Of a DNA stretch of 64,000 nt, positions 15,005 through 51,045 are shown one piece after another; within the stretch, counting starts at the first letter, position 1; each line of letters begins with the position of its first letter. The notes beneath the pieces were generated by a model. It saw only the letters and a list, made by a program, of their open reading frames with translations, was not told where the DNA came from and ran no database searches. Origin of the DNA: an uncultured Mycoplasmatota bacterium (GTDB lineage Bacteria; Bacillota_I; Bacilli_A; RF39; UBA660); contig CANTCQ010000001.1 of the NCBI GenBank assembly GCA_947652325.1, positions 1 through 64,000 on the forward strand, given 5' to 3'. The translations under genes and the position numbers were made by a program.

Positions 15005-15046
15005 CTTATAGAGAGGCAACATAAATTTTAATAAGGAGGAAATGTT

Positions 15047-15322
15047 ATGCAAACTTTTATGGATTTTTTAGTAAATAATTATTTATGGTTTTTAATTATT
15101 TCATTAGTTTTGGTTTTTGCTTTAATTGGCTATTTAGTTGATACAAGTGAAGATTCTAAAAAAGTAATAAAAAAAGAAGTAGAAGAGCCAATAAATACGT
15201 TTGTAGATATAGAGGATGAAAATGAAAAAAATAATTTACAAACAAATTCAAATTTAGAGGCAAATATGAATAATATACAAAATATTTCTACTGAAACAGA
15301 GTTATTAGATGATAGTGAATAA
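15047..15322 (+). CDS. Small single-TM hypothetical protein
   Basis: ORF with good SD (aaggagg). Confidence 0.6.
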   Translation: MQTFMDFLVNNYLWFLIISLVLVFALIGYLVDTSEDSKKVIKKEVEEPINTFVDIEDENEKNNLQTNSNLEANMNNIQNISTETELLDDSE

Positions 15323-15345
15323 AATAGATAGAGAATCTATTTTTT
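15323..15345 (+). terminator. Intrinsic terminator
   Basis: AATAGAT-AGAGA-ATCTATTTTTTATTT. Confidence 0.7.
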
Positions 15346-16192
15346 ATTTATTTAGTTTAATTGTCTCTGTCTTGAAATTTAATTAAGTGATTGTGTTTTT
15401 TCTTTCCTTTTATAATAGGTATTTTTTATATTTATGTAATACTAGATTTTCTACAATAGAGTCATAATCTAACTCAATTTTATTTATATAAAATATTAGT
15501 TCTTTTTAAATTACTGTATTTATGTATTTTTCTAAATCTTTTCAAACTTAAATCAGTAATATTTATTATTTTTTCAAATGTTAAAATGTGTGTTGGGCAT
15601 TTATCTGTATTGTAATGAACTAAAAAATGGTTTTAATATTGCAATTATTCCCTTTCAAAATATCTTTCAAGTTTTACTTGATTTTAACATACTTCCATTT
15701 TATTTTTAGGAGATTTTAATATATAATTATGAATATGTTTTATCAGTTAAAATGTTTCTTTTATTATATTTATCAATCCAACCATACTCAATATTGTTCA
15801 TTAAATCCATTATTAAAATTTATTATAAATTTAATTGACTTTTAGTTTGATAGGTCATTTTAAATAAATTTTTTATCCTCTTTCCACGTTTTAGGAATAG
15901 CAGTTCTACTAACAAGGATATATAATTTACTGCGATAATTTTCTAGCTTCTTGTTTCAATCAACTTCTTTTTTTCTTTTATTAGAGTGGCACTTAATACT
16001 TTCTTTTTTCTCACTTATGATATATTATTTATAAATCTTTAAATTTAGTAAATTTTTAATCACCATGAATTTTATTTTTTCTTATTACTGTTGTAATAAT
16101 TTTTAAGTTTTCATTATCAACTTTTCATTTTATGTAGATTTTAACTTTATATTATTTGGATAGCAATCTTAAAGCAAAATTAATAAAATCAT

Positions 16193-16945
16193 TTATTTTG
16201 TAATCCCTTTAGATTCCAAATAAGTATTAACATTTTTTAATCCAAAAATATATGTTAAATTATTTTTACTATTTATAGTAAGAGGTTTACCAGATATAAA
16301 TTGCTCATATTCATTTTTTTCTAATGTATAATCAAAAAAGTTTGTTGAATCAATCAAAATCGTAGGTTCACTATCATATCCATTAGGATAAATAAAATTG
16401 TATGCATGATATTCATCATTTAAGGAACCACAGACAAATTCAGAATCAATTCCTAAAAACTTAAACATATTATGAGCTAAACCTGATATTTCTGAGCAAA
16501 CGGCTATTCCATTTTTTTTGATAATTTTTATTGATAAACTTTTATCTTTATTAGATAAATAAGTTGTATATCTTGCTATTATTAAATCTTTTTTTGATTT
16601 AATAGAATTAGGATTAAAGTATTCATAAATTGTAATGTTTATAAGCAAAAGCAAATGTGTAATATCATGGCAATTATTTTGTTTAATTAATTTTATTAAA
16701 TTAAAATATGGTTCTAAATCATCATATATTAAATCTGGACATTTACCTTCTTCAAAATCTGGAGATGGCTTAAAATGTATTTTTTTTGAAATGTAATCTC
16801 TAAAACTATCAGTATAATTTTGTCCAACTGTTTTTTCCTCACTACTTAATTCTAACAGAAACGTCTTATTTATAATAAAATATTCTATTTGCTCGTCAGT
16901 TTTTAATTCTATTATTTGTTTGAGTATATCATTCATATTTTTCAT
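16193..16945 (-). CDS. Transglutaminase-like / papain-fold protein
   Basis: Ordered Cys-His-Asp candidates: GIAVCSEISGLAHNMFKFLGI ... EYHAYNFI ... TILIDSTNFFDY. Confidence 0.6.
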   Translation of the reverse strand: MKNMNDILKQIIELKTDEQIEYFIINKTFLLELSSEEKTVGQNYTDSFRDYISKKIHFKPSPDFEEGKCPDLIYDDLEPYFNLIKLIKQNNCHDITHLLLLINITIYEYFNPNSIKSKKDLIIARYTTYLSNKDKSLSIKIIKKNGIAVCSEISGLAHNMFKFLGIDSEFVCGSLNDEYHAYNFIYPNGYDSEPTILIDSTNFFDYTLEKNEYEQFISGKPLTINSKNNLTYIFGLKNVNTYLESKGITK

Positions 16946-17080
16946 CCTTTAAAAAAATTATTTAGTGTTATTTTTTATAACAATATGTAAGTGTGTTTTC
17001 TAAATGAGCAAAACTAATTTAACCTTCTATAAATATTTTATTCTATTTATATTTATAAGTATATTAAAACTTTGAACTTA

Positions 17081-17108
17081 AAAGTTTGAGGTTCCTATCA
17101 ATCTGGTG
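17081..17108 (+). repeat. 28-bp direct repeat, left copy (26/28 identical to 23965-23992, the tRNA-Arg 3' flank)
   Basis: AAAGTTTGAGGTTCCTATCAATCTGGTG. Confidence 0.85.
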
Positions 17109-17216
17109 CGATAGTGATAGTTAAACTAACTTTTCGTCTAGTACATATAGTATGACTTCATATCTAAATTATAAACTATTCTTGAAAATAATTTTATATT
17201 TTTTTTGATTTTTCTA

Positions 17217-17400
17217 AGCATTTTTGAAATGCTTGATTCATTTCTTCATAAATTTGCTTTTCATCATACTGAATTAATTTCAAATAATCATCAAGTTCAT
17301 TTTTAAAATCTACATAAGTTTCCATCTCAGCAATTCCTTGAACCAAAGGAATCACAACACATAAATCAGTTCTTTTTCTACCATTAGGTTGAAAATCACT
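17217..17400 (-). pseudogene. Orphan C-terminal fragment (..GRKRTDLCVVIPLVQGIAEMETYVDFKNELDDYLKLIQYDEKQIYEEMNQAFQKCLEKSKKI*)
   Basis: Open minus-strand frame lacking an N-terminus, adjacent to the degenerate copies below. Confidence 0.4.
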
Positions 17401-17876
17401 TAATTTAGTATATTCACTATATCTTCATAAACTTGTTTATTATAATCACAACAATTTTTATATTCTTCTGTGGTAGTTTTAGAAACATTATAAGGTTTAT
17501 ATATTTCATAAAACGTTTCTTTTTTAAATCTAAGTAATAATGTTGGGTCATAGCAATAACCATCCATTTCAATCCACCCATGACCAGCTTTTTCTTTCCC
17601 ATATTTTAATTCTAAATCTTTATTATCACCATGAACTAAAACTGCATTAGGAAAGCAAAAAAATATATATAAACTTCTATCATAACATTTACCTGGTCTA
17701 AGTATATGTTTTAAATATTTCATGTGTATAGATACAGGTAAACACTTAATATAAGTATAACTCAATTTTTCATAAAATTCATCATCAAAAGGTACAATAT
17801 TACCATCTTCTACACCTTTTTTTAATAAAAGTTGCATTTTGCTAAAATATAATCCTTTTTTAATATTATCAAACAT
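17400..17876 (-). CDS. Papain/transglutaminase-like small protein
   Basis: GKCYDRSLYIFF ... AGHGWIEMDGYCYDPTLLL: Cys-His-Asp order. Confidence 0.5.
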   Translation of the reverse strand: MFDNIKKGLYFSKMQLLLKKGVEDGNIVPFDDEFYEKLSYTYIKCLPVSIHMKYLKHILRPGKCYDRSLYIFFCFPNAVLVHGDNKDLELKYGKEKAGHGWIEMDGYCYDPTLLLRFKKETFYEIYKPYNVSKTTTEEYKNCCDYNKQVYEDIVNILN

Positions 17877-17889
17877 ATTATTTTTTCAA

Positions 17890-18179
17890 CCCCATTTTTT
17901 TCATATCTTCATCTATTTCTTGACATATACAAGTTGAATATCATCATTTTCATTTGAAAATGCTCTAGACATTAATATTGCTCTATCATAACAATACCCA
18001 TTAGACATACTGTTAGATAATAATATTATTGATGCTGGAATTCCACCATAATAAATATTTCTTAACTTAAATTATCATTATAAGGTTTGATATAACCATT
18101 TTTTATTCCCCATATTAATAATTGTTTTGATTTATAATTATGTAACTTCCATTTCATATTTTGCAATTTTGTTGTCATC
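17890..18179 (-). pseudogene. Frameshifted paralogue of the 17400-17876 gene
   Basis: Minus strand reads MTTKLQNMKWKLHNYKSKQLLIWGIKNGYIKPYNDNLS* then, in another frame, RNIYYGGIPASIILLSNSMSNGYCYDRAILMSRAF; compare SKMQLLLKKGVEDGNIVPFDDEF...GKCYDRSLYIFFCF. Confidence 0.6.
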
Positions 18180-18792
18180 CAAAACACCCTTTTTTGAATT
18201 GCTGTGTATGTTACCATAAAAAGTAGATTTATGCAACTTTTTTCCTATATTATCTTTTGAAATTATCTCTTTTATCAATAATTTTTTTATTTTGAATAAT
18301 ATATGTTTGATAAAGAATATGTTAAAGTTAAGTAAGAAACTTTTGATATTATGAATCATGTTTTTAAAGAAACAAAAAAGATTATGGAATACAAAAAACT
18401 CAACAAATTATTAATTTATAGAAGAAAAATAGGTTTATTATGAAAAAAATAAGAGAACAAGATTATGTACTAGATGAGGGCATTATTGTTATTCACCATA
18501 CACTTGATGCCTTATATTCCAAAAGAAATTGAGCAAAAAGTTTTAAATTTAGTTGTAGAAACGGCAGATTTATTTAGATTATCCTAAAGAAGGTGAAATT
18601 AAAGATATGGATATAAAAAAAGAAGATTATGTAAGAAGAGTAAAAATATATAAAGCGAAAATCCTCAAAACATAAATGATATCTAAATAGTTATTTTAAA
18701 TATGCTGCTCTAAGCAAAATGATTATAGAAAAACATTTAAAAAAAGCTTTTAAAAATTTTTAATTTTGTTATAATAAGTCGGGGTGAATTAT

Positions 18793-21700
18793 ATGGATGA
18801 TGAAATAATAATACTAACTGATGATAAACTAGAAAATGCATTTGTGGACGATGCTTTTAAAATGTATATGCGTGAAATTCGTCGTTATCCAAATTTATCC
18901 GTAGAACAGCAACAAAAATTAGGACATCGTTACAAAGAAAATGGTGATTTGAAGGCTAGGGAGCTTTTAATAAATTGTAATTTAAGATTAGTTGTAAGTG
19001 TTGCATATCATTATAGATTAATAATTAAACATCTTCAAATATTAGATGTAATACAAGAAGGTAATTTTGGACTTATTCGAGCTGTAGAAACTTATGATCC
19101 AGAACAAGGAGCTTTTACTACTTATGCATTTTTTTGGATAAGTCAGAAAATAATACGTGGACTAGCGAATAAAGATGATGTTATTAGAAAGCCAGTTCAT
19201 ATTGTTCAAACCACTTATAAATATCTTGGTCTTGTTGAAAATTATAACCAAAAAGGATTACCATTACCATCTGATAAAGACATTTGTGATACTTTAAATA
19301 TAACAATAGGAACTTTAAAAAAAATAAGAGATTCTTTAAAACAGAATCCAGTTAGTTTGAATCAAACTATAGATGATGAAGATAAAAGTGAATTAGAAAA
19401 ATTCGTTACTGTTGAAAATCATGATTACGATAATATATTAAATCAAATAGTAAATGATAATTTATTGTCAGTTTTAAAAGAAGTGTTGAGTCCATTATAT
19501 TATTTTGTTATTTATTATCGTATATTGAGTGATGAACAAAAAACTTTAAAAGTAGTGGCTTCTTATTTAAATATTACAGGAGAGCGTGTAAGAAAAATTG
19601 AAGCATATGCTTTGAAAAAAATAAAACCATATATGGTAGAAGATAGTAGTGTCTTTACAAGCGTATTAAATAAAATTAAACAAAGAGAAGGATATAAATT
19701 TTATTCTTTAAGAAAGACACCATTATCTCCAACTCAAATTAATAGATATATGTATTTAAAAGATGATTTAACTGATTTAGAGAGAAAGTTATATCAATTA
19801 AATTTATTAGGAAAATATAAGTATCGAAATGCTGATTATGCTTCTATTTTAAAAATAACATTACCAGAATTGAATCAAGTTATGACTTCTTTGAAAGCAA
19901 AATATAATAAGAAATTTAGTGATGCCAGGTCATTTAAGTACTTTCAAGAACAAATGATAAAAAATTATGGCACTGGTATATTTGATATAGATATTAATAA
20001 AAAAGAAAAAATAATAGATTATCGTGCTTTAGAAGAACGATATTCTTCACTTAGCTTAGAAGAAATTGTAAGTTACTTTAATGATGTTAATTATAATCTA
20101 ACTCACGATGAAGAAACTTTACTTAATAGGTATTTTGGTGTGTGTAATTGGGGAATACTACACCCAAGAGTTATTGAAAGAGAAGTTAATGTATTAATTT
20201 TTGGCTTTAGGAAAAAAAGTAAACAAGTTCCATTAAAAAAATTGTATAAAGAATATATAAGAATAATGCCTAAATTTACTGAAGAACAACAATTATATTT
20301 AGAATCATATTTTTTTGGCAAAAAAAATCGTAAGTTTTTTGATATAAATTATCCTAATTCCATTTTATATAGGCATGATTATTTTTTAATAGAAAAATTA
20401 GAAAGAAGTTATTATCATATTTACGAATATTTTGAAAATAATTTTACTAAGGAAAACTGGTTAGAAATAAAAAATAAATATTGGGAACAATTCTCTGATG
20501 AAAAAATTGAATATTTAGATTTGTATTATGGTGTTAAAGGAAAAATATATTCTATACCTGAAATAGCTGAAATGTTTCAAATGGAGTATATTAAAATGCA
20601 CGATATAATACGAGATGCTAGAGATTTGGCTATTCATTTATTTAGCGGAATAAAAAGAAAAATTGAAATTGATAAAGAGTTATATATACCATATATTGAA
20701 GATTTACATTATGATTTCACTAAAGAAACAAGAGATATTTTAAAATTATTTATAATTGAAGGTAAATCTTACGATGAAATTAGTAAAATTACCAGTTTAA
20801 ATAAAACGAGAATTTCTAATATTATTACAGATGGAATAAGAAAAATTGATAATTTTAGATTTGAAATCAGTCAATGTTTTATTATTGATGATGAAGAATT
20901 AAATAATTTTTTTGAATATTACAATAACAAAATAACACCTGTAGAGAAAAAAATATTAAGATTAAAGCATATAAATCATATGGAAAATAAAGATATTGCA
21001 CCTATAGTTGGTAAAACTTTGCAAGAGGTTAATAGTTATGTAAGGCGTTTTAATGTTTTATATAAAAATTATATGATACGAGATGTTGTTTTAACTGACA
21101 ATGATATTGCTGATGAAATAGCAAGACATAAAAGTGAGTCTATTTGGTCAGAAGAAGATAAAGAATTTGCTAGTTTCTATTTTGGAATTCAAAGTGTATA
21201 TAATCCAACTGGTTTGAAATTAAAAATGGAAGAACTTATGAAAAAAATGGGCTATAGTAAGCATACTTACTATCATATTTATATAAATATGATAAAACTA
21301 TTAAAAGCTCGTAAAATAGACTTTGTAAAACCAGATAATAATTATATATCTAGAGAAAAACTGGATAAATTGTTAGATGATGTTCATTTGCCTATAAGTG
21401 ATAAAGAAAGAGAAATAATTTGTTATCTCTTTGAGTTAAAAGGATATCCATATAAAAATATAGAAGAACTAACTTCAATATTCGGTGATAATAAAGGCAG
21501 TATAAAAAGAAGGTATCAAAGAGCTATTGTAAGTATTTATAAATATCTTAACAATGAAATAGAGGGTACTATTCACTATGAAGCTGATATTGTTCCTATA
21601 CTTAAATATTTTGGCATAAGTGATAGAATGAAAATAGAAGACTTTTATAAAAATGGTTTAACATATGAAAAAATGGCAACAAAACATAAAATAACATTTG

Positions 21701-22422
21701 AAAAAATTGTAATTATTATGAATAGAATTAGAACTACTATTTATGATTTAATGAATAATCCTAATGCTAAAAAATTTGATTTTGATTATTATTTAAAAGC
21801 TATAAATAATCCAGATTTACCATTTTCAGGTGATTTGCCTTTGGCAATTCAAATTTTTAACTTATCATTTGGAATGGATGGAGAAGAAAGAATGAGTATT
21901 CCTACAATTATGGAAAAATTACAATTAGATTTTGGATCAACAACGATAAACAAAACAATTAATTCTTTAATGTTAAGTGTTTGTAAGTTAAAAGATGGTA
22001 TAAAAATAGATAAAACTTTTTCTTTTGAACAGGTTTATTCTTACTTTACTAATAATTATATTAATATTCCAATTTATCGTAGAAAGATTTATCAAAAATA
22101 TTTTAATAGAGTTAAAAGTCAGAAGAATATAAATGGTTTAGGTTTTAAATTATCTAATGATATTATTTATGACCTAATTAAGGCTAATTATTCAAATGCT
22201 TTTGAATTAGGAAATACGAATAAAGAAGAGGTTTTAGAATTAATTAATAAACATGGCAAAGAATTAAATAAAAGAATTAGAAATGAATTAATGGGGAGAT
22301 TTGATATCAGAGAAAGAGATTACATGAATGGAAAAGACATTAATCATATATTTAAGATGTTATATACTTTAGATACAAGAAGAAAAAAATTAGATTCTCA
22401 AACTTTAGTGTTAAAAAATTAA
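18793..22422 (+). CDS. Giant sigma-70 family protein: sigma2-sigma3-sigma4 head plus about 900 aa of repeated sigma4/HTH-like modules
   Basis: [103 protein letters not shown]; uninterrupted ORF. Confidence 0.9.
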   Translation: [1209 protein letters not shown]

Positions 22423-22462
22423 AATAATATTGGATGAACAATGATTTAGAAAATAGAAACTA

Positions 22463-22503
22463 ACAGAAATCCAAAAGAAACTTCGTAACTAATGGATTTC
22501 TGT
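22463..22503. terminator. Hairpin with perfect 10-bp stem (ACAGAAATCC/GGATTTCTGT), probable terminator of the giant sigma gene
   Basis: Direct reading; short T run follows. Confidence 0.55.
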
Positions 22504-22740
22504 TTAAAATTTAGTTCTTTACGACTAGGTAACACATTACCAAGTTGAACATTGATAGAATAAGGTGATACTATTTGTTCCAAGGAAGCTGTCTACCATC
22601 TACATAATAATACCAACTAAAAAATATATAGTGGATTTAATACATTATAAAGATATAATGAATAATAAGATTAAATCCAAATATTGACTTAAAATATCAT
22701 ATATATATAATATATTTCAAATTATGAAGTGGTGAGTGCG

Positions 22741-23861
22741 ATGTTTAATAATGTTTTTGATTTATATAATCATAATATTTTGGCATATCGTAAGATTTTA
22801 TTGGGATTAGAAAAAACAAAAGACATTGTTTCAATTATTCATGGAACAGGTACAGGAAAATCTTATATTGGTTTACAATTAGCTTATGATTTTAGTAAAA
22901 AAATAGATATTGATGATGATTCTAGGATTTTATATATTGTTCCATCCCATGGAATAATTGAACATTTGCATGAAATAATTGATTCAATTCCTAGTTTGAA
23001 CTTTGATAGAGATTTCTCAAAAGTTGATTTTATTACATATCAAAGCTTAGTTTATCTATCAAATGATGAAATAGGAAAATTGAAAATAAAATTATTAATA
23101 TTGGATGAGTTTCATCATATTGGGGCACCTATATGGGGCGAAAAAATTAATACTTTAGTTGAAACACATGATGGAATGAAAGTATTTGGTATGACAGCTT
23201 ATACTGTTAGAGATAGAGGTACTATATACGAACGAGATATGGTTAATTCTGATGGTAGTGAATTATTTTCGAATAGTGTTGTAAGCAAATATGATATTTG
23301 TGATGCAATGATTGATGGAGTTCTTCCCAAACCTATTTATAAAACAACTTATATAGATTTACTTGATAAAGAAATAAAGCTAGAAGAATTAGTAAATTCA
23401 AGAGATTTTTCTCAAAAAGAAAAAGAAGAATATTTAAAAATTTTAAAAGATGCTAGAAAGAAAATACTCAGTGCTCCTAGTATAAAGCAATTATTTAAAA
23501 ATAATATTAAAAAAGATGGAAAGTATTTATACTTTTGTCCATCGACTTCTGAAATGGGTATAAATGATATAGATTCAATAATTGAAGAAACAAAAGGTTG
23601 GCTTTACGAATTCCTGTAAATCAAATAGAATTATTAGAAGTAATTGGAATACAATGGATGAGTGAGAAAACAGACAAAAAACTTCAATTTGAATGTATAG
23701 ATGAAAGTAATTATCATAGAAAAAAGATTGAATTATTAAACAGAGCAAATAGTTTTTTAAATCAATTAATTTTATTAGGGATAAATGAAATAACATCAAA
23801 AGATGATATTGATTATATAAATAATGAGTTTGAAAAACAATTGACTTTAACAAAAAAATAA
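22741..23861 (+). pseudogene. DEAD/DEAH helicase-like protein, N-terminal half intact then frameshift / loss of C-terminal helicase domain
   Basis: IHGTGTGKSYIGLQLA (Walker A), LLILDEFHHIG (DEFH), VFGMTA (motif III-like); frame ends 23619 and an overlapping frame continues to 23861. Confidence 0.6.
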
Positions 23862-23893
23862 TATATTTTAGAAATCCAGTCCTTTATGATATA

Positions 23894-23924
23894 AACCCCA
23901 TTTCTATGTCCAAGAAACGGGGTT
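23894..23924. terminator. Hairpin AACCCC(A)TTTCT ... AGAAA(C)GGGGTT
   Basis: Inverted repeat with one mismatch. Confidence 0.5.
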
Positions 23925-23955
23925 CATATAGTACTTCTAGTTAATATTTATTACT

Positions 23956-23974
23956 CTCGAATAAAAAGTTCGAG
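23956..23974 (-). terminator. Terminator hairpin of tRNA-Arg (CTCGAA...TTCGAG)
   Basis: 6-bp perfect stem immediately 3' of the tRNA. Confidence 0.5.
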
Positions 23975-23992
23975 TTTCCTATCAATCTGGTG
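23965..23992 (+). repeat. 28-bp direct repeat, right copy, covering the tRNA-Arg 3' end (ACCA) and flank
   Basis: AAAGTTCGAGTTTCCTATCAATCTGGTG; 2 differences from 17081-17108. Confidence 0.85.
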
Positions 23993-24064
23993 TTCATGAT
24001 GAGATTCGAACTCATGACCTCTTCCTTCGGAGGGAAGCACTCTATCCAGCTGAGCTACATGAAC
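23988..24064 (-). tRNA. tRNA-Arg (anticodon CCG), CCA encoded
   Basis: GTTCATG-TA-GCTCAGCTGGATAGAGT..CTTCC-CTCCGAA-GGAAG..ATGAG-TTCGAAT-CTCAT-CATGAAC-ACCA cloverleaf. Confidence 0.95.
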
Positions 24065-24097
24065 GAAATAAAATTATATTAGTTTATTATACAACAA

Positions 24098-24640
24098 TTA
24101 TGACTCATTTTCATTTATTTTACACTGACCTTTGCATGAAAATTTCTTTTCTATTATTTTTTCTTTTTCTGGACATTTTAAATATATTTTTATACGATAT
24201 TCTAATTGTGCTATTTTCGTAACGATTACATAGCTGCTAAAATAATTACACACTTTATTTTTTTCTTTTATTTCTTCTAATTTTTTTAATTGAATCATTT
24301 CTTCTAATATAATAGAAGAAGAATCTCCAATGTGGATAGGTAACTTATTTTCTCCATAATAAGCCAGTGTGGCATCTGTAATTTTCTTTATATTTTGATT
24401 AAATTCTTCTTTTTCTTTTTTGTGATATTGGTTAAGTCTAGAAATAATTATCATAATAAATATGATTACTAAAAAAAGAATTCCTAATTTTGTAATAACC
24501 AATTTCCAATTAATTTTTTTTAAAAAAGAATTTTGTTGCAGTCTTTTTATTTGAGGAAAAGAAAATTTTAATTTCTTTTTTAAAATGAATTTATTTTTAA
24601 CTTTTTTTTTCTTTCTGTTTCTTCCTTTTTCTTCATACAT
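24098..24640 (-). CDS. Single-TM secreted protein, pseudopilin-like (same pattern as 721/1156)
   Basis: Basic N-terminus, one TM, VCNYFSSYVIVT...YRIKIYLKCPE. Confidence 0.6.
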   Translation of the reverse strand: MYEEKGRNRKKKKVKNKFILKKKLKFSFPQIKRLQQNSFLKKINWKLVITKLGILFLVIIFIMIIISRLNQYHKKEKEEFNQNIKKITDATLAYYGENKLPIHIGDSSSIILEEMIQLKKLEEIKEKNKVCNYFSSYVIVTKIAQLEYRIKIYLKCPEKEKIIEKKFSCKGQCKINENES

Positions 24641-49179: not shown

Positions 49180-51045
49180 GTGACGGATTGTGGGGTAACG
49201 TCAGAAATATATCTAACTAAGAAATTTGTTTCAAAAGAAGAATGGATAAAATTTATTAATACAGTATCAGATTATAATGGTATTTTAAGAAAATGGAAGA
49301 TAATCATTACTAACAATCAAAATCAAGTAAGATATTTTATTAAGACCAAATGTACTTTGCCTACTACGATAAATAATTTGAATTCATTTTTAATAAAACA
49401 ATCATCGGAAATAAAAGTTCCTAAATTTAATTACGCATTACTTTCTTTTCCTAAAATTGGTAGCAGTATTATAGATTTATTAAACTATAGTGAAATTAAA
49501 AATAAAGGTAAACTTGAATATTTAGAAATCAATTTTTTTAAATTTTATGACGATAAACAAAAATCAAAAATAAAATTTTATTTAAATAAAAATGGTGTAA
49601 TTAAAAAATATAAGGTTCTTTTTGCTAATCCAACAAGTATATTATCGGTAGACTTTGAAGGAAATAAAAGATATTTTTATAAGAGCTCTCCTAAATATTT
49701 AGAAATAAATAAAATTTTGCATTTATTAAATAATGATTCTAATAATGCTTTGTTATCTGTTGAAACATTTCCTTATTTACAAGGGGATTTCTATTTAAAT
49801 CAAAATCATTTTAGCTTTGATAAACATTCTATTATTATGGGTTCATCTGGATGCGGTAAATCTAAATTTATAAGTTTGTTAATTAATAACATTAATAAAA
49901 ATAGCAGTATAAAGCAAAAATATAAAGTTGTAGTGATAGACCCTCATGCTTCTCTTGAAAATGATATAGGCGGTATAGGTAAAGTAATAGACTTTAAAAA
50001 CAATTTAGATAGTATTGATTTATTTATTAATAACGATGATGATATAGTAGCCTCAACAGAATTATTATTAGATTTATTAAAAGCTTTAATTACAGTTCAA
50101 TATAATTCAAAATTAGAAAGAATTTTAAGACATTCTATACATTTATTATTAACTGATGAATCATTTAATTTTAGAAATTTAAGAATGCTTATTTTGGATT
50201 TAGAATATAGAAATGGATTAATTAGAAAATTAAAATATAACTTACCTGTTAGTGTAATTGATTTCTTTTTATCAGATTTTAATGATTTGAAAACCAAATC
50301 TTATGGCGAAGCTATATCTCCAATAATAAGTTTTATAGATGAAATGGAAATGATACCCGTTTTTAATTCAGAGCAAAATAATGAAAATTTAAAAAATACC
50401 ATACATAATAATTTTTTAACTTTATTCTCATTAGATAGAACAAAACTTGGAGACAAGGTGACTAAAACTATATCTGGATTAATAATGCAACAACTATTAA
50501 CAATTATTCAGCGTCATGAAATAGATGAACATATTATATTTATTATTGATGAAGTTGCAGTAGTTGAAAATCCTATTTTATCTAGATATTTATCAGAGGC
50601 AAGAAAGTATAATTTATCATTAATATTGGCGGGGCAATATTTTAATCAAATATCCAATGAATTAAAGAATTCGATATTTGCAAACGTAGTAAATTACTTT
50701 ATATTTAGAGTATCTAAGTTAGATGCTAATGTAATAGTTGATAACTTTAACATGAAAATACCTTTGGATGATACTCGAGATAGAAAAATTAAAATATTAA
50801 CTGAATTAAATAATAGAGAGTGTATTGCTAGAATAGATTCTAATGGTATATTATTACCAGCATTTAAAGGTATTACATTAGATTATGTAAGTATTCCTAG
50901 AATAAGAAAAATAATTATAAATGGTAACAATAATAAAAAAAATAATGATTATAAATCAAAAACTAACTTTAGCTTAAATAGTAATGTCAATTTAAAAGAT
51001 ATTTTAATATCTACTTCTTCAAGCAGAAAGGATGTGAAAGAATGA
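49180..51045 (+). CDS. TraG/VirB4/HerA-like DNA-translocase-type ATPase
   Basis: IIMGSSGCGKSKFISLLI, KVVVIDPHASLENDI, IIFIIDEVAVVENPILSRYLSEARKYNLSLILAGQYFNQISNELKNSIFANV; start codon uncertain. Confidence 0.8.
   Translation: MTDCGVTSEIYLTKKFVSKEEWIKFINTVSDYNGILRKWKIIITNNQNQVRYFIKTKCTLPTTINNLNSFLIKQSSEIKVPKFNYALLSFPKIGSSIIDLLNYSEIKNKGKLEYLEINFFKFYDDKQKSKIKFYLNKNGVIKKYKVLFANPTSILSVDFEGNKRYFYKSSPKYLEINKILHLLNNDSNNALLSVETFPYLQGDFYLNQNHFSFDKHSIIMGSSGCGKSKFISLLINNINKNSSIKQKYKVVVIDPHASLENDIGGIGKVIDFKNNLDSIDLFINNDDDIVASTELLLDLLKALITVQYNSKLERILRHSIHLLLTDESFNFRNLRMLILDLEYRNGLIRKLKYNLPVSVIDFFLSDFNDLKTKSYGEAISPIISFIDEMEMIPVFNSEQNNENLKNTIHNNFLTLFSLDRTKLGDKVTKTISGLIMQQLLTIIQRHEIDEHIIFIIDEVAVVENPILSRYLSEARKYNLSLILAGQYFNQISNELKNSIFANVVNYFIFRVSKLDANVIVDNFNMKIPLDDTRDRKIKILTELNNRECIARIDSNGILLPAFKGITLDYVSIPRIRKIIINGNNNKKNNDYKSKTNFSLNSNVNLKDILISTSSSRKDVKE

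Follow-up and report, generated by a model that had tools for sequence, protein, structure and literature searches.

To our knowledge, members of the sigma70 (σ70) family, one of the best-known families of bacterial proteins, have a single σ4 domain. Among them, the group 2 factors (RpoS/SigB-like paralogues of RpoD) have a core of regions 1.2, 2, 3 and 4, lack region 1.1, and carry the RpoD-type core-binding motif; known members have ~250–400 amino acids (aa). ECF factors lack σ3. A gene that breaks the one-σ4 rule lies in a 64,000-nucleotide stretch of DNA from an uncultured, gut-type Mycoplasmatota bacterium (positions 1 to 64,000 of the forward strand of contig CANTCQ010000001.1, assembly GCA_947652325.1), referred to here as the window. 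This gene, at 18793..22422 on the + strand, encodes a giant sigma factor of 1,209 aa in which a group-2-like core is followed by seven or eight diverged σ4-like domains. Within one family of uncultured Bacilli the protein is conserved colinearly across ~1,200 aa, and its gene has been transferred as a single accessory gene. The giant sigma factor shares its core, the absence of region 1.1 and the core-binding motif with group 2 factors, but differs from them in having a C-terminal σ4-like array of ~920 aa.

Other described proteins resemble the giant sigma factor in part. The closest concept found is the regulatory domain of ECF41. ECF41 and ECF56 factors likewise have a C-terminal extension, with no adjacent anti-sigma factor seen (PMC3426412, PMC7730460). 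The fused extension of ECF41 is crucial for activity (PMC3426412), and the extension of the ECF56 factor SigG1 is SnoaL_2, not σ4 (PMC7730460). Assignment of the giant sigma factor to the ECF factors with an extension was rejected, since region 3 is in place and the tail matches Sigma70_r4 and helix-turn-helix (HTH) families, with no SnoaL match. MzaA, the sigma factor of the MZA anti-phage system (NF041931), is likewise a large sigma-family protein with a sigma core that aligns; however, its extra part is N-terminal, and the giant sigma factor matches only the C-terminal sigma core of MzaA. Membership of the MzaA family was also rejected (136.7 bits against a cut-off of 800, over the core only). 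The small HTH proteins UPF0122/YlxM and ArdK/KorA fold like single modules of the tail, but they are single-domain proteins rather than arrays behind a sigma core. No description of tandem σ4 arrays, or of giant or multi-domain sigma factors, was found in the open-licence literature; such an absence is not proof, and as far as could be found a giant sigma factor with a σ4 array is apparently undescribed.

A group-2-like sigma core

The reading frame is unbroken in the window from the ATG at 18793 to the stop codon that ends at 22422, as a first-pass annotation of this DNA had held. The sigma core comprises aa 1–290 (18793..19662), with regions 1.2, 2, 3 and 4 recognized in that order by Pfam and NCBIfam. 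Sigma70_r1_2, Sigma70_r2 and Sigma70_r4 exceed their curated Pfam cut-offs; region 3 is in place but weak (aa 153–208, 19249..19416; PF04539, 16.5 bits against a cut-off of 25.3). NCBIfam models of RpoS/RpoD sigma factors cover aa 17–287, with E values of 5e-50 to 1e-46. Region 1.1 is absent, the sigma core beginning at aa ~20. Within region 2 (aa 59–127, 18967..19173; PF04542, 59.4 bits), the homologue alignment shows an unchanged core-binding motif, LDVIQEGN, which we take to make the contact with the β' clamp in σ70. The same alignment shows that F108, Y111, W115, Q118 and R122, presumably positions of residues for −10 opening in σ70, are kept, with one W to F and one T to I change; the −10 dyad WW reads FW in the window copy. 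The native region 4 (aa 222–280, 19456..19632; PF04545) has the recognition helix TGERVRKIE in the window copy and TRERVRQIE in the homologue at locus L007. A separate RpoD-like open reading frame (ORF) of 365 aa is present in the same genome (G000, C2:195076). With regions 1.2 to 4 in order, no region 1.1, key residues kept and a sequence distinct from that of its own RpoD, the head is, judged by sequence, a group-2-like σ70 core.

A tandem array of σ4-like modules

The ~920-aa tail contains seven clear σ4-like modules (M1–M7), a probable eighth (M8), and stretches without detectable σ4 similarity. Evidence for the modules came from hhalign comparisons between tail profiles, built from an alignment of 17 homologues, and an independent σ4 profile of 51 sigma factors from outside the giant-sigma family, namely RpoD and further paralogues. 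M1–M7 scored 36.7–52.9 against this profile, with hhalign probabilities of 93–97%, whereas the best of 308 column-shuffled controls scored 15.9. Compared with the family's own σ4, the module peaks exceed all 168 shuffled controls (maximum 19.1). Seven σ4-homologous domains that surpass all controls are thus found C-terminal to the core. Moreover, when the tails were isolated from their heads, Pfam detected Sigma70_r4 in 17/17 homologues and Sigma70_r4_2 in 15/17.

The modules follow one another on the + strand. M1 (aa ~317–377, 19741..19923) scores 36.7, and 47 against the family's own σ4. M2 (aa ~562–618, 20476..20646) scores 47.0. M3 (aa ~641–689, 20713..20859; 47.3) is also matched by Pfam Sigma70_r4, and M4 (aa ~707–764, 20911..21084; 52.9) is the best Sigma70_r4_2 stretch of the tail; both are covered by an AlphaFold2 (AF2) model. 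M5 (aa ~783–841, 21139..21315; 45.2) has the most basic recognition helix, M6 (aa ~866–921, 21388..21555; 45.0) falls within the best-conserved region of the tail, and M7 (aa ~930–988, 21580..21756) scores 43.8. M8 (aa ~1013–1068, 21829..21996) is a probable module, scoring 19.0 against σ4, 36 against M2 and 32 against M3, with a similar pattern of helices in the AF2 model. One segment, Ma (aa ~436–466, 20098..20190), is marginal at 16.4, a control-level score, and is not claimed as σ4. Segment Md is at about control level, Mb and Mc are negative against the independent profile, and hhalign with that profile found no σ4 signal at aa ~488–560 or 1076–1140. The C-terminal part (aa 1073–1209, 22009..22419) is helical and basic (median isoelectric point, pI, of 9.4), with no clear σ4 match.

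The first-pass annotation had described a σ2/σ3/σ4 head with a long tail of tandem σ4/HTH-like blocks. This architecture is borne out by Pfam, by hhalign against shuffled controls, by the fold model and by the homologues. Of the seven tail blocks that it listed, six are σ4-like and the one at aa ~436 is the marginal Ma; M7 and M8 are present but had not been listed. Of the checks that it had called for, repeat detection, fold prediction and a homologue search yielded repeated Sigma70_r4-like modules and homologues of similar length.

Structure prediction is consistent with these assignments. An AF2 model of the whole tail, made from an alignment of four sequences, is all helical, with repeated units that each close with a long helix; its mean pLDDT is 64.7 and its pTM 0.38, and aa ~640–845 are mostly above 80. 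A separate model of M3–M4 has a pLDDT of 82; most of the PDB structures that Foldseek finds close to it are sigma factors and UPF0122 and ArdK HTH proteins. Target-normalized TM-scores of M3–M4 against the isolated σ4 domains 3vep, 5fgm and 3vfz are 0.70–0.73, with no match at E<0.001. With the whole-tail model, Foldseek lists sigma factors in nearly every one of the top 50 rows, at E values of only 0.07–0.45, so this result is consistent with σ4 but is not proof. The tail sequence, searched against solved structures, gave no significant match. The predicted M3–M4 fold resembles σ4.

Distribution, selection and transfer

Of 386 genomes of the order, 19 matched the tail profile, including the genome of the window; all 19 belong to a single taxonomic family, and the occurrence is patchy. 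Most matched ORFs have ~1,180–1,240 aa. Colinear homologues at 88, 61 and 52% identity occur in separately assembled genomes, and tail identity among colinear homologues ranges from 25 to 89%. The tail is conserved at the level of the head, with a maximum at aa 861–1080. The 17 homologues in other assemblies rule out an assembly artefact or fusion unique to this contig, which the first-pass annotation had named as an outcome that would overturn its proposal. Beyond the family, 298 genomes of the class and 396 of the phylum added no full-length member; the weak matches of the tail profile in the class-wide search included ordinary sigma-sized ORFs at M6, short ORFs (~100–125 aa) at M3/M4 and short ORFs at M7, which adds to the evidence for σ4 in the tail. 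Shorter relatives of 394–414 aa occur, and some copies are split or have in-frame stops (L045, L049). At L045:49-4871, a 249-aa sigma core and a 764-aa tail are separate ORFs, and two further sigma genes stand in the row. At L046:8449-11970, a giant-family tail follows an RpoD-like head, an apparent head swap.

The closest homologue, at L005 in genome G014, is informative about selection. The window gene and L005 differ with a nonsynonymous rate (dN) of 0.056, a synonymous rate (dS) of 0.183 and a dN/dS ratio (ω) of 0.31, and ω ranges from 0.19 to 0.48 across the five segments tested. These values place the whole tail under purifying selection. Between these two genomes, ruvA, ruvB, queA and tgt have a dS of 1.06–1.46 and an ω of 0.05–0.18. 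Since the gene copies are far closer than the genomes that carry them, the sigma gene has been horizontally transferred. DNA similarity between the two copies begins 41 bp before the ATG and ends at the stop codon, which indicates that a single gene moved.

Comparison with congeners places the window copy in an accessory insertion, with approximate limits at 15005..24090: the distance from a DUF3048 gene to the gene at 24098 is ~9.1 kb in the window, compared with ~0.4–0.55 kb in seven congeners. Other homologues are single genes amid differing chromosomal genes, and no conserved operon partner was found among the homologue neighbourhoods. Phage or plasmid origin was rejected after searches of 50,697 phage and 72,556 plasmid records gave no match. 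A viral contig contained one 67-aa end fragment, close to a transposase.

Possible functions of the array

The simplest reading is that several of the modules bind DNA upstream of the −35 element. Among the functions suggested in the first-pass annotation, reading of several sites best fits the anatomy. A more specific proposal, the most likely of those considered and about as likely as not to be right, is that the protein is an alternative sigma factor whose σ4-like array adds upstream DNA contacts, acting as a built-in activator. The head would bind RNA polymerase and open the −10 element, the native σ4 would occupy the −35 element on the β flap, and the later σ4-like domains, several of which have basic recognition helices, would reach upstream along the DNA to further sites. 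One polypeptide would then serve as both sigma factor and activator and would need an unusually long promoter; its regulon would probably be a small set of accessory or host genes. The fixed number and order of the diverged modules suggest that the target is one specific long site and not repeated DNA.

The distribution of charge is consistent with DNA contacts. Median pI is ~9 for the tail versus 5.7 for the head. When charges are added up across M1–M8, the recognition helices come out positive in 17/17 homologues (+5 to +22) and the first helices negative in 15/17 (zero in one, +3 in one); these counts are supporting evidence only, since the homologues are related, the helix windows are slightly unequal, and the asymmetry is also a trait of σ4. 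The recognition helices of M5 and M6 are basic in all 17 homologues, with a charge of +2 to +7 for M5.

Several observations weigh against the upstream-contact model. Canonical −35 contacts in the native σ4 are lost in the window copy (TRERIRQ, with R to G and Q to K), although the homologues L006 and L007 retain them. The recognition helices of M1, M2, M7 and M8 are not consistently basic, and some modules may therefore bind protein. Upstream of the ATG the closest homologue shares just 41 bp, so the two copies have no long, conserved autoregulatory promoter in common. No target promoter has been found, no genome-wide search having been made. Lastly, the homologue at L038:7186-10122 is headless, with σ4 and a full tail and no σ2 or σ3 found in 16.6 kb, which suggests that the array may act without initiating transcription.

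In the strongest rival, which we consider unlikely, the tail would be a fused regulatory or scaffolding domain that does not read DNA; its σ4-like folds would gate activity through binding to the sigma core, to RNA polymerase or to an anti-sigma-like partner, in concept like the extension of ECF41. The lack of consistently basic recognition helices in M1, M2, M7 and M8 is in keeping with this view. The ECF41 extension provides a precedent for a C-terminal part critical for activity (PMC3426412), the conservation peak at aa 861–1080 could be an interaction surface, and there is no conserved adjoining partner gene. However, homology ties the modules to a DNA-binding domain, M5 and M6 retain basic recognition helices in all 17 homologues, and eight copies are not obviously needed for a gate.

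A role in genetic conflict is a good deal less probable again. Here, a mobile sigma factor or RNA polymerase decoy would redirect or titrate polymerase against phages or rival elements, or aid its own spread. The accessory island, the single-gene horizontal transfer (dS 0.18 versus 1.06–1.46) and an ω above that of the four housekeeping genes are in keeping with such a role, and L005 has DRT2, a pair of AbiD-like genes and a type I restriction system in its vicinity. L005 is the sole such case recognized; most homologues lie amid housekeeping genes with no obvious defence neighbours, and the phage and plasmid records gave no match, with one end fragment in viral contigs. The earlier suggestion of a polymerase hijacker encoded by a mobile element is supported as to mobility but not as to phage or plasmid encoding, and the suggestion of a defence device has the L005 neighbourhood alone in its favour. 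It is very improbable that the protein is an ordinary alternative sigma factor with a mostly neutral or decaying domain duplication as its tail, since the short relatives and the split or interrupted copies that would suit this view are set against purifying selection throughout the tail and colinear length down to 25% identity.

If the array reads DNA, sigma factor and activator would be merged in one molecule, and promoter length would become evolvable and countable. If it does not, a DNA-binding domain would have become a structural repeat.

Other oversized sigma factors of the family

Oversized sigma factors are a hallmark of this family, whose uncultured Bacilli have small genomes. When sigma regions were surveyed, oversized sigma ORFs of 496–1347 aa were found in many genomes of the family, with several per genome in some; among the best-scoring matches listed, class-mates outside the family rarely exceed 480 aa. 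These paralogues also have a sigma core and a long tail but differ from the giant sigma factor in their RpoD-like heads, in an extra N-terminal part of ~150–220 aa in most, and in near-identical repeats in some. In a tree of heads, the oversized sigma factors group with RpoD and the giant-family heads form their own clade apart; this placement is provisional, since it comes from one FastTree of 278 columns for which no support values were examined. No convincing Pfam family was found in the scanned proteins for the C-terminal domain or the N-terminal part of the oversized sigma factors.

In other paralogues, arrays built from near-identical repeats of 75–94 aa each resemble σ4 only weakly by alignment and profile comparison. 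The protein at L103:7265-8890 (G014, next to ruvAB; 541 aa) consists of five near-identical σ4 repeats and a C-terminal domain, with no σ2 or σ3, and scores 119 bits with Pfam Sigma70_r4. Together with the giant-family homologue L050, which carries σ4-M1 twice, this five-repeat protein demonstrates tandem σ4 duplication in the lineage; a common origin of all tails is not demonstrated. Near-identical and diverged arrays form a natural series on the origin of domain repeats, whichever reading of the giant sigma factor is correct. A broader proposal, offered more tentatively than the upstream-contact model itself, is that the lineage has evolved sigma factors that read promoters via a row of σ4 domains far upstream of the −35 element, replacing their own activators, with arrays that would grow and diverge by σ4 duplication and circulate as mobile genes.

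Among individual paralogues, a 1,347-aa sigma factor at L098:7037-11080 has an RpoD-like core followed by seven nearly identical repeats of ~85–94 aa. The genome of the window has two more oversized sigma factors, of 760 and 547 aa, upstream of ruvAB (L096:6731-10753; C3, ~104.7–108.8 kb), and a pair of sporulation-type sigma genes, which would fit order RF39 of the Bacilli (PMC10868615). An ω value for the 547/541-aa neighbour pair was discarded, the two not being true orthologues. By eye, a C-terminal domain of ~120 aa is common to L108, L114, L118, L120, L096, L101 and L103, and the N-terminal part of ~150–220 aa is common to those with RpoD-like heads.

Start signals and neighbouring genes

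A ribosome-binding site, GGGGTGA, precedes the giant sigma gene at 18781..18787 (+ strand). A consensus promoter scan with an obligatory −35 element gave no match for this gene. A candidate promoter, read from the sequence as an extended −10-like element, is TGTTATAAT at 18767..18775 (+ strand), which falls within the 41 bp upstream common to the window gene and L005; similar boxes, as judged by eye, precede many homologues.

The right end of the insertion region is marked by a tRNA-Arg gene (23988-24064). Beside it, at 22729-23858, an ORF with a ResIII/DEAD helicase domain runs into a second ORF that overlaps it in a different frame, likely the remnant of another accessory gene. Near the giant sigma gene at L006, L035, L040 and L043 are large repeat surface proteins that are related to one another, an association not tested against chance. 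Further along the window, 49180-51042 encodes a HerA/TrwB-like coupling ATPase, possibly from an integrated conjugative element.

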